Positions 60,899 to 64,000 of a DNA stretch of 64,000 nt are shown in pieces. The position numbers and the translations under genes are program-made. Every line of letters begins with the position of its first letter. Within the stretch, counting starts at the first letter, position 1. Origin of the DNA: a virus; the IMG/VR virus record IMGVR_UViG_3300007960_000002, positions 1 through 64,000 of that record. One strand, written 5' to 3'. Below the pieces are notes generated by a model, which saw only the letters and a program-made list of their open reading frames with translations, was not told the DNA's origin and did not search any database.

Positions 60899-63800
60899 CT
60901 TCAACTAAATACTCCTCATACTTATTTAATGGGATTTCCGTAAGCCTTCCAGTATCTTTTTCATAAGCTAAATAACATGCAATTCCAGTTAAACCAGCAT
61001 ATCTATTCTTTAATACTCTAACGGTAGTAAGGTTAGCTAGTTTATCTGTTGGTGCTTGTTGATCACGCTCTAAACCGATTACAGCATCACTTAATTGAGC
61101 AATAGATTGACTACCACGTAAATGGGATAGAGTCACTTCTTTACCCCTTTCATGTCCTTTATCACCTTCAGTTCTACGTAGATGAGATACAAGGAAAAGG
61201 CCAGCTCCAGTTTCTTCCGTAAGAGTACGTAGTTTAGTCATAATACTATCAATTGTCTTACGTTCATCTCCACTATCTTGAGCAGAAACAACAATGGATA
61301 AATGGTCTAAAATAATCCATTTACAATCTAAAGCTTTTATTAAATACCTAACCCTATTTAATAAGTTGTCTTCACTAGTAGAGCCAAAATGATCATAGAT
61401 AGCAATACGGCCAGTACCATGAGTATTCTCCCACCATTTATCAACGAGTTTATTCCAATTAATTGGATCTTTTTGTTCTGCTTTATACCGTTCTTCTAAA
61501 ATCATTAAAGGTTTATTAGCTTCAATAGACATCATTCCCCACATAGTCTTATCTGGAGATTCTTCTAAAGCTAAAACACCAATATTATCATCAGTTGTTT
61601 TATGAATCCAATGTGATAATTCTCTTGTGACAGCAGATTTCCCTAATCCTGAATTTCCAGTAATAAAGATATTTTTACCTCTTCTAAGGACTAACATACC
61701 AGAGGGGACAGTAAAACAATATTTAAACCCATCTATTGTTTTATATTTTTTGAATGTTGGTGATGAAGTACTAGTTTTTCTAAATGATACGTTTGTTACC
61801 TCAGTTGTATAAACATTATACTCAGTATGACCTTTTTCATGTCTAGGTATAGTTAATAATGTTGCTCTCTTACCAATAGCAGAGAAAGCATATTGAATGA
61901 ATTTAGCATCTTCTTCTATAGTAGAAAAGAAGACTGATTTCTGATCGCCATCCCATTGGAGACATTCTTCACAAATAACTTCTAACTCTCTCTTTGTACA
62001 AATTCTATACCAATATTTACTATATGTTTTTTTCAAAAAAGGTGGTTTGAAATAAAAATCCGAATAATCTCCTCGTTGTTGCACTTTATATTTTATATTA
62101 GCTTCAGTTAATAGTTTATGTGCCCTTTTAATTTTTCTTCCTTTTTTTAAATTTACCCTACCAATATTTTTTTGTATACAACCATCTGCTTGGAACATAA
62201 CTTGAACACGTAATTGTTCTTCAGTAAGGCCAGTTCCATTATTTAATGGTGCTTCAAATGTTGTTAATATTTTTCCACGAAACCCTGTTGTCTGAGAATC
62301 ATGAATTTCCCTAATTTCACGTAATATCTTCTCTCTTAAGACATTTGAGTTCTCTGTTTTATATATAACCCGATGTTCATCAGAAAGTACTTGATCAACC
62401 CCATACTTTGTTTTAATATGCCATAGATAATTAGTGGGCTTTTTAATATATCTCTGTGGGTAAACAAAAGATGTTGAACCATCTTTATGGTATTGAAGTA
62501 CCATATCATAATTTTCTTTATAATTAGATATCTTTTTCCATCCATCATTTGATAAAAACTCGGTATCAGCGTCTACACAACCGGCTGTTAATGTAACTAT
62601 CTCTCTTTCTCTAAATCCATATAATTTATCATTCCATCCATTCCAGGGAAAGGGATGAGACTTAATATGTTTATTTTTATCTAATAGTCCACGTAAATCC
62701 TTTGTTTTAAAAATACCATCTGGATGAAACTCTTTAGCATTAAAGATAGATTGTTTAAATTCTTTAAGCTTTTTATTTTGCAGCATATCATTTGGATCTT
62801 TCTCACTAAAATTAGCGATCTTTACCTGCCCTGGGTTAAATAATTCTGCTATCTCCCTGGCAGCTTTCTTTCCTGGCCGGTCTTGATCAAATGCAAGAAT
62901 AATAGTTTTAAATTTATCTAGCCATTCATATTGGTCTTTAATTGCCCTAACATTAGCACCATCTGGAAGAGATACTACATTATACCTATCTCCATTTTGT
63001 TTAGTCATCATCATCCATGCAGCGGCGGCATCACAGTTCCCAGAAATTGAGATACTACCTTTTTGCCTAACTAATAACATTCCAGATGGAACTGTTAAAC
63101 AGTAAACCTTACCATTATATGGAATAGTTTTATATCCTCTTTGTGCTGCTGAAGATGTTTTATTTAAAAGAATTGAAACTTTATACCAAGATCCATATTG
63201 ATTAGATCTTGGTATAATGGTAGAAACCCATCCATTTAAATGGGCTAGTGTTTGAACAAATTTTGCATTGTTATATAATTTAGAAGAATATTCTAATTGT
63301 TTTTTCCCTTGTACATAGTTTCCATCCCAATTAACAGCTTCCCAAAGAAAGGTAGAAATCTGACTACTATTAAATTTATAGATTAATGAATGGTCAAATT
63401 CTTTTGCCCAAATTCTCGAAATATCGTTTGTTTTAAACACTCTATAATCTACATATCCATCATTCCTTGTATTTTTTGAATATTCTAGATTAAGATTTGA
63501 TAAAATCCATTCTGCTCTCTCTCTTTTCCTATCTTTTTTAAAAGAAGCTCTAGGACCACCTTGAGTTAAACTATAACTCCAATCAGCAGAAAACATCACC
63601 ATAGCCCTGATTTCCATATCAGAAAGGTCACACCGATTATTATCCTCTAAACTATATAATACCCTTGGTATATTAAAGTGTTTATTAGAATCATCTCTTG
63701 CTTTTTGTTTAATTAAATTTCCATTATTTTTATTAATCCTAACTAAATTATGGTCTGGTGTAGTAATTGATTCCCAAGATCCAGACTTATATTGTACTAA

Positions 63801-64000
63801 ATCACCATTAAAATCTTTTTCTACTTTAAAATCAGGATAAACCCATTCTCCACCTTGATTTGAATTAATTTGTAACACTTTACCATTTTTATAATCTTTA
63901 AATGCTGTCCATCCTTCTTCTGTTAAAACTTCAGCATCTGGAAGGAAACACTCCCCCTCTGTAATAATGACCGTAGTTCCGCCTTTTATTTTATCCTGTC
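60885..64000 (-). CDS. T7 gp4-like primase-helicase with two inteins (5' part outside window)
   Basis: Reading frame continues to the right edge (extein ...GGTTVIITEGE before intein 1), so the zinc-finger and catalytic primase N-terminus lie beyond. In-window domains: TOPRIM (EGE, then CDAAAAWMM and AFDQDRPG), then RecA-like helicase with Walker A SGLGKS, WIILDH, LVSHLRR and LRGSQSIAQLSDA. The C-terminus EDEDF is an acidic tail with a terminal Phe, as in T7 gp4, where it contacts DNA polymerase. Inteins at 63036-63950 and 61653-62579 interrupt the TOPRIM and Walker A motifs. It unwinds DNA and makes primers. Confidence 0.92.
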   Translation of the reverse strand, partial: QDKIKGGTTVIITEGECFLPDAEVLTEEGWTAFKDYKNGKVLQINSNQGGEWVYPDFKVEKDFNGDLVQYKSGSWESITTPDHNLVRINKNNGNLIKQKARDDSNKHFNIPRVLYSLEDNNRCDLSDMEIRAMVMFSADWSYSLTQGGPRASFKKDRKRERAEWILSNLNLEYSKNTRNDGYVDYRVFKTNDISRIWAKEFDHSLIYKFNSSQISTFLWEAVNWDGNYVQGKKQLEYSSKLYNNAKFVQTLAHLNGWVSTIIPRSNQYGSWYKVSILLNKTSSAAQRGYKTIPYNGKVYCLTVPSGMLLVRQKGSISISGNCDAAAAWMMMTKQNGDRYNVVSLPDGANVRAIKDQYEWLDKFKTIILAFDQDRPGKKAAREIAELFNPGQVKIANFSEKDPNDMLQNKKLKEFKQSIFNAKEFHPDGIFKTKDLRGLLDKNKHIKSHPFPWNGWNDKLYGFREREIVTLTAGCVDADTEFLSNDGWKKISNYKENYDMVLQYHKDGSTSFVYPQRYIKKPTNYLWHIKTKYGVDQVLSDEHRVIYKTENSNVLREKILREIREIHDSQTTGFRGKILTTFEAPLNNGTGLTEEQLRVQVMFQADGCIQKNIGRVNLKKGRKIKRAHKLLTEANIKYKVQQRGDYSDFYFKPPFLKKTYSKYWYRICTKRELEVICEECLQWDGDQKSVFFSTIEEDAKFIQYAFSAIGKRATLLTIPRHEKGHTEYNVYTTEVTNVSFRKTSTSSPTFKKYKTIDGFKYCFTVPSGMLVLRRGKNIFITGNSGLGKSAVTRELSHWIHKTTDDNIGVLALEESPDKTMWGMMSIEANKPLMILEERYKAEQKDPINWNKLVDKWWENTHGTGRIAIYDHFGSTSEDNLLNRVRYLIKALDCKWIILDHLSIVVSAQDSGDERKTIDSIMTKLRTLTEETGAGLFLVSHLRRTEGDKGHERGKEVTLSHLRGSQSIAQLSDAVIGLERDQQAPTDKLANLTTVRVLKNRYAGLTGIACYLAYEKDTGRLTEIPLNKYEEYLVEDEDF
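61653..62579 (-). mobile_element. intein 2, inside the Walker A motif of the helicase
   Basis: 309 residues from Cys (CVDADTEFLSNDGW) to Asn (NIFITGN), followed by Ser+1 of SGLGKS. Joining TLTAG to SGLGKSAV rebuilds an intact T7-like Walker A. A degenerate LAGLIDADG-type endonuclease lies in the middle (MFQADGCI and LQWDGDQ). The residue before the final Asn is Gly rather than His. Confidence 0.9.
63036..63950 (-). mobile_element. intein 1, in the TOPRIM active-site loop of the primase
   Basis: 305 residues from Cys (CFLPDAEVLTEEGW) to Asn (SISISGN), followed by Cys+1. Splicing joins EGE to CDAAAA, restoring TOPRIM. N-block, F-block (YCLTVPSGML) and C-terminus match intein 2, so they are sister inteins. 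The endonuclease motifs are MFSADWSYS and VNWDGNYV. Penultimate residue is Gly. Confidence 0.9.
63967..63977 (+). repeat. ATGACCGTAGT word, copy 5 of 5
   Basis: Inside the primase-helicase gene just before intein 1, about 50 kb from copy 4. Confidence 0.6.

Follow-up and report, generated by a model that had tools for sequence, protein, structure and literature searches.

Two inteins from separate lineages of one family in the TOPRIM and Walker A motifs of a phage primase-helicase

The primase-helicase gene and its two inteins

We analyzed positions 1-64000 (64,000 bases; hereafter the window) of the 68,037-base virus record IMGVR_UViG_3300007960_000002 (labelled L002; other loci are labelled likewise), in which a primase-helicase gene at the right edge is interrupted by two inteins. 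The minus-strand frame at this edge is open down to position 60885 and starts beyond the window, with its 5' end at record position 64433; on the whole record the gene is complete (L002 886-4434, minus strand, ATG start, 1182 aa). Once both inteins are removed, an extein of 568 aa remains, which matches Toprim_2 and DnaB_C above the Pfam cut-off and is assigned to PHROG 239 (DNA primase/helicase) in PHROGs. N-terminal Cys pairs, read by eye only, resemble the zinc motif of the T7 gp4-like type. As judged from its sequence, the host protein is a T7-gp4-type primase-helicase, with zinc motif, TOPRIM and a DnaB_C-like helicase in one chain. The features of the locus are as follows (a slash within a motif marks the insertion point; the basis of each row is in brackets).

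60885..64000, minus strand: primase-helicase gene with both inteins (open frame, Toprim_2, DnaB_C, PHROG 239)
63951..64000, minus strand: end of extein 1, ...TVIITEGE, the TOPRIM catalytic Glu region (sequence)
63036..63950, minus strand: intein 1, 305 aa, CFLPDAEV...ISISGN, TOPRIM site EGE/CDA, protein aa 162-466 (sequence)
63582..63584, minus strand: endonuclease Asp123 of intein 1, first LAGLIDADG motif, FSADW (alignment)
63324..63326, minus strand: endonuclease Asp209 of intein 1, second LAGLIDADG motif, NWDGN (alignment)
62580..63035, minus strand: extein 2, remaining TOPRIM and linker, to TAG of Walker A (Toprim_2)
61653..62579, minus strand: intein 2, 309 aa, CVDADTEF...IFITGN, Walker A site TAG/SGLGKS, protein aa 619-927 (sequence)
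62184..62186, minus strand: endonuclease Asp132 of intein 2, first LAGLIDADG motif, FQADG (alignment, Asp in 20 of 20 sequences)
61950..61952, minus strand: endonuclease Asp210 of intein 2, second LAGLIDADG motif, QWDGD (alignment, Asp in 20 of 20 sequences)
60885..61652, minus strand: extein 3 (SGLGKS..., RecA/DnaB-like helicase domain) and stop codon (DnaB_C; 80 relatives at 60-68% identity)

Both inteins are in frame with their exteins, and the coordinates, lengths, splice junctions and insertion motifs given for them by a first-pass annotation of the window, made from the letters alone, proved exact to the base. AlphaFold models, built on alignments of 9 sequences for intein 1 and 20 for intein 2, have a mean pLDDT of 91 and 95, respectively. 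A Foldseek search of PDB gave the TliVMA intein (7qsu) as the best match of either model; the top matches are full-length endonuclease inteins (TliVMA, PhoVMA, PI-SceI and PI-PfuI), and the endonuclease part of the models matches I-DmoI. According to these models, both inteins have the predicted HINT splicing fold with a nested LAGLIDADG endonuclease. The LAGLIDADG aspartates are kept (D123 and D209 in intein 1, D132 and D210 in intein 2), in keeping with the 'DOD-like' endonuclease motifs that the first-pass annotation had seen. By sequence, both inteins are poorly recognized by NCBIfam and Pfam, and a sequence search of PDB returned nothing intein-like for either, whereas the structure search does match inteins.

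The residues for splicing are present: Cys1, the block B His (H67 in intein 1, H69 in intein 2) and the terminal Asn (N305 and N309), followed by a +1 Cys at site 1 (TOPRIM) and a +1 Ser at site 2 (Walker A). Cys1, the block B His, the block F Cys, the Gly before the terminal Asn and this Asn are invariant in both alignments. A penultimate His is usual in inteins and not essential; here its place is taken by Gly in both inteins, as the first-pass annotation had noticed, and penultimate Gly is the rule in this intein group (9 of 9 sequences in the alignment for intein 1, 20 of 20 in that for intein 2). Other phage inteins without the penultimate His still splice, according to passages of Kelley et al. 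2016 (PMC5050341); the same passages report that the mycobacteriophage RDF intein, which has a penultimate Gly, splices completely, that changing this Gly to His slows its splicing, and that its host protein is a putative metallophosphoesterase. Intein 1 is distantly related to the metallo-phosphoesterase intein of phage Pepe, and we infer that the RDF and Pepe inteins are alleles of one intein. Class 3 inteins, which lack a nucleophile at position 1 and have a triplet of Trp (B12), Cys (F4) and Thr (G5), were considered and rejected as an assignment: the F4 Cys and the G5 Ser/Thr are present, but so is Cys1, and the B12 place (assigned by our own block numbering) is Leu/Val.

Empty sites, ancestry and target motifs

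As relatives of the host protein we took the best 80 IMG/VR loci from a scan with the helicase part (at least 599 rows). The intein-free protein aligns as one uninterrupted match to all 80. Site 1 is empty in all 76 relatives that cover it (in two the alignment shows a small gap at +4 to +7, and none has an insert), and site 2 is covered and empty, with no gap, in 80 of 80. At site 1, all 76 have Glu as residue -1, and residue +1 is Ala in 39, Leu in 20, Val in 15, Cys in 1 and Thr in 1; at site 2, residue +1 is Ser in 80 of 80. The best full-length match among the 80 (L004, 55%) reads EGE/CDA without interruption and, alone among them, has Cys as the +1 residue there, and the best helicase match among the matches listed (L003) reads TAG/SGMGKS, likewise uninterrupted; both targets therefore exist unoccupied in the nearest kin. 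Of the named phages, Vibrio phage CHOED, Pseudoalteromonas phage Slicky01 and Aeromonas phages 1233 and MQM1 have the closest helicases (57-59%); neither the CHOED primase (575 aa) nor that of MQM1 (579 aa) is interrupted, and they read EGE/FDA and CSG/SGMGKS.

For the ancestry of the inteins we collected 171 inteins from GenBank phages and IMG/VR, reduced them to 126 by removing those at least 80% identical and then to 100 by removing 11 named weak rows and those at least 60% identical; each alignment scan kept the best 80 loci. Sets of 33 and 28 rows were hand-picked to cover the main groups. Partial inteins (11 of 159 loci) were excluded, and inteins first found in later scans (e.g. L263) are absent from the trees. 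Searches of viral contigs with each intein as a single sequence found no relative, and alignments were used instead. A scan of genome contigs with the intein-1 alignment found none; as one very narrow pattern, it says little on bacterial genomes.

The first-pass annotation had called the two inteins sisters and proposed aligning them with their homologues as a check. They align end to end with 29% identity (E = 3e-27) and proved to be of separate lineages, not a sister pair; compared as DNA, they show no copy-like similarity beyond short runs. When the 171 inteins are ranked by match, intein 2 comes only 32nd for intein 1, and intein 1 only 96th for intein 2. The nearest relatives of intein 1 are L104 (43%) and the later-found L263 (48%), both at EGE/CDA in phage primase-helicases, followed by that of the Turj99 primase (35%) and by metallophosphoesterase inteins in Proteus phage RS8pmA and L106 (L106 has no Pfam phosphoesterase hit and is so labelled from inspection by eye and for its resemblance to RS8pmA; the RS8pmA host protein itself is annotated only as hypothetical). 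Intein 2 is nearest to the P-loop inteins L183 (46%) and L185 (45%), and then to the KIL1 primase/helicase intein and RtcB inteins.

The trees give the same division. In the 33-row tree, intein 1 and L104 group with support 100/99 inside an 8-row TOPRIM/metallophosphoesterase group (93/89), and intein 2 lies inside a 14-row P-loop/RtcB clade (100/100); in the 100-row tree, intein 2 is inside a 51-row clade (SH-aLRT 99). Forcing the pair as sisters costs 147 log-likelihood units (approximately unbiased [AU] test, p-AU 3.5e-8, 33 rows), and with 28 rows sisterhood is rejected by the HINT part alone (p-AU 2.9e-9) and by the endonuclease part alone (8.3e-6). Separate histories for the splicing and endonuclease parts were also considered, and both parts give the same answer. 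Sequence comparison thus points to a deep common ancestor of the two inteins, each having many closer relatives elsewhere, and the pattern suggests that two related lineages, which differ in their targets, invaded independently.

Insertion flanks were read directly for each intein, and the motif classes are our own reading. Out of the 51 rows in the clade of intein 2, 41 are in P-loops and 8 in RtcB (DIG/CGM); the remainder are one at KTG/CGN in a ribonucleotide-reductase-like protein (L235) and one at DLRG/SAAL in another primase-helicase. Pfam identified RecA, clamp loader, RecD2, SNF2, RtcB and primase-helicase among selected hosts. E/C sites make up 22 of the 100 rows and include TOPRIM, metallophosphoesterase (GDE/CD), PhoH (DE/CQ), ClpX-like (LDE/CD) and ResIII (DE/CH) sites. 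Intein 1 groups with inteins at such motifs, namely those in TOPRIM of other phages and in metallophosphoesterases, and less firmly with those in Walker B. With three target classes (E/C, G/xG and other), the 100-row tree requires 10 changes, as compared to 34-48 in 2,000 label shuffles.

At the DNA level, bases -6, -3, -2, +1, +2 and +5 are invariant across 11 intein-1-type sites from four host kinds, and 50 intein-2-type sites have GG before the insertion and GG one codon after it at near-full frequency. Such bases are expected from shared codons, and would also suffice for a tolerant endonuclease. In most P-loop members the insertion reads G/xGK[ST]. Intein 2, L189 and L227 (both also in primase-helicases) insert two codons upstream, at G/SG[LM]GK[ST], and the terminase-like L191 at GS/TGSGKT. 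Since intein 2, L189 and L227 do not group together on the trees, insertion at the shifted site probably arose on at least two occasions, which suggests that what is recognized is the local G/SG sequence and not the place in the fold.

Double occupancy and competing explanations

We compared the window gene with 14 distinct other intein-bearing primase-helicases (from 22 open reading frames [ORFs], duplicates merged by eye). The intein is at TOPRIM only in seven, at the P-loop only in six, at another site in one and at both in none, and in 14 of 14 the TOPRIM and P-loop sites not occupied by that intein read uninterrupted; no second doubly invaded primase-helicase was found in this pool (best 80 loci per scan). 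The intein at another site is that of the Escherichia phage 18-1-2 primase-helicase (L088 4501-5424), at DLRG/SAAL near the end of the helicase domain. L104 and L263 carry a TOPRIM intein at the EGE/CDA site of intein 1 and differ from the window gene in their uninterrupted P-loop. Conversely, the primase-helicase P-loop inteins of Pseudomonas phage KIL1, L189 and L227 are 39-43% identical to intein 2, L189 and L227 at its exact G/SG[LM]GK position and KIL1 two codons further on (G/TGKS), but the TOPRIM site is empty in all three. The TOPRIM intein of mycobacteriophage Turj99 gp53, as described in passages of PMC5050341, is like intein 1 in its EGE/CD site, length class and Gly-Asn end; its host is a stand-alone primase without a P-loop intein, with a separate DnaB-like helicase gene nearby.

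Among 326 loci with full-length hits (335 searched), one gene, in L383, carries two members of this intein family in a single frame; the search covers this intein family only and would miss e.g. the His-Asn intein of L185. The L383 gene (3950-8083) is a kinase-phosphatase-RNA ligase ORF of 1378 aa, with inteins in the kinase P-loop and at the phosphatase motif GNHE/CH. Like the window gene, it combines a lineage-2 P-loop intein with one after an acidic motif, but its second intein is of another subfamily. L185 (1083-4067, clamp-loader-like) likewise has a lineage-2 P-loop intein and one at the acidic Walker B motif (LLDE/C...HN/CH), the latter being of the His-Asn kind (by eye; Pfam Intein_splicing). 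Multiple inteins or intein sites in one ATPase are described for other proteins: the replication ATPases M. smegmatis DnaB (PMC6195587) and haloarchaeal MCM (PMC10643990), and the packaging ATPase TerL of a crAss-like phage (PMC7886860).

With exact in-frame insertions, sites empty in relatives, intact motifs, predicted intein folds, separate ancestry and lineage-specific targets, we consider it very likely that the primase-helicase was invaded twice, independently, by related but distinct homing-intein lineages, each at its favored catalytic motif. Intein 1 would have come from a lineage placed after the acidic residue of an E/C motif, and intein 2 from one placed at G/[STC]G of P-loops and RtcB. 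In a mixed infection, the LAGLIDADG endonuclease would cut an empty copy of the target, which would gain the intein when the break is repaired with the occupied gene as template. In the translated protein, attack by Cys1, transfer to the +1 residue (Cys at site 1, Ser at site 2) and cyclization of the terminal Asn would ligate EGE-CDA and TAG-SGLGKS, the two splicings rebuilding TOPRIM and Walker A; as the first-pass annotation also held, both inteins would have to be removed for an active enzyme. In general homing theory, within a catalytic motif only precise loss of the intein at the DNA level is harmless, and the motif is conserved across many phages, which makes such sites good refuges.

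A wider proposal, which we hold to be about as probable as its opposite, is that one broad family of Gly-Asn phage inteins split into lineages whose specialization is for short catalytic motifs, not for a single gene: G/[STC]G (P-loops and RtcB DIG/CGM) versus E/C[DHQ] (TOPRIM, Walker B and metallophosphoesterase). They would jump between unrelated folds, since the target would consist mostly of the motif's own DNA, and bifunctional enzymes with both motifs (the window gene, L383) would collect one of each. Several points weigh against the reading of two invasions at favored motifs. A +1 Cys or Thr is missing at site 1 in 74 of 76 relatives, so that most of them could take up intein 1 only with co-conversion. 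The target classes were drawn up after the pattern was seen, and the E/C inteins do not fall into a single tidy clade (rows from PhoH, ClpX and Walker B shift between trees). In addition, the residue that follows the first endonuclease Asp is Trp in intein 1 but Gly or Ala in most relatives, so that the endonuclease of intein 1 might be weakened.

The first-pass annotation had also suggested that one intein was copied from the other or that both came from a common source. A deep common source fits the data; a recent copy moved between sites within the gene is extremely unlikely. The homology is full-length, and the N-block, F-block and Gly-Asn end are indeed common to both, as that annotation had stressed, but these blocks occur across the wider family and are not peculiar to this pair, the DNA similarity is confined to short runs, each intein has dozens of closer relatives, and the AU tests reject the sister tree. 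That the insertions are assembly artefacts joining different phages is scarcely credible: the record is a virus contig without read data at hand, but the insertions are codon-exact, end in intein splice residues and lie at sites used in other phages.

Two further explanations concern splicing. Decayed, non-splicing inteins in an enzyme that is dead or replaced could be imagined from the Trp beside the first catalytic Asp of intein 1; with an open frame of 1182 codons, intact splice-junction residues, high-confidence folds and no second copy of the extein found by tblastn in the 68-kb record, we regard this as very unlikely. Splicing could also act as a switch, slow or conditional, which turns primase and helicase on late or under some condition. 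Both inteins are inside catalytic motifs, and the M. smegmatis DnaB inteins differ in their stress response (PMC6195587), but the sequence has no sign of regulation, intein-free relatives are far commoner, and the Gly-Asn end is tied to faster, not slower, splicing in one phage intein (PMC5050341); we regard a switch as improbable. Two independent invasions remain our preferred explanation.

Genes with several inteins are already known, as are TOPRIM and P-loop sites occupied singly in phage primase-helicases; new are the combination of both sites in one primase-helicase and the evidence for a lineage-specific choice of catalytic motif. We found no earlier report of a primase-helicase with two inteins, or of motif-specialized intein lineages, in the open-licence PMC literature; insertion next to conserved motifs, inteins shared by DnaB and TerL and an active-site TOPRIM intein have been reported (passages of PMC5050341). 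In the window gene, both catalytic centers of one replication enzyme are held by inteins of separate origin, and it supplies two compact Gly-Asn inteins, with +1 Cys and +1 Ser. If true, the motif proposal would give a testable rule for gene choice (the endonuclease of a lineage reads, in DNA, a catalytic motif common to unrelated enzymes) and would account for the clustering of inteins in active sites without an assumed regulatory benefit.

Other features of the phage genome

Upstream of the primase-helicase gene (record ~66-68 kb) are an HNH-like ORF (L002 6198-6572, below the Pfam cut-off) and a 5'-3' exonuclease (L002 7087-7950). A class II-type ribonucleotide reductase (52980-56569, minus strand) consists of three ORFs separated by two predicted group I introns (RF00028 in Rfam, at 54982-55182 and 54121-54344), and the region includes a LAGLIDADG ORF (55061-55819) and a GIY-YIG ORF (53570-54304). 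A separate LAGLIDADG endonuclease ORF (56814-57254, minus strand) lies directly downstream of thyX (57244-58113). The phage thus has at least five endonuclease-type genes (two inteins, two intron ORFs and the LAGLIDADG ORF by thyX).

The DNA polymerase (3258-5413, minus strand) extends over overlapping ORFs, namely an exonuclease part (4850-5413), a small ORF (4570-4857) and a polymerase part (3258-4610), and Rfam found no intron in this split region. Positions 6924-10435 (minus strand) encode a cassette of a DUF2201 metallopeptidase/VWA-like protein, a DUF3150-like protein and an ATPase (PHROG 1297).

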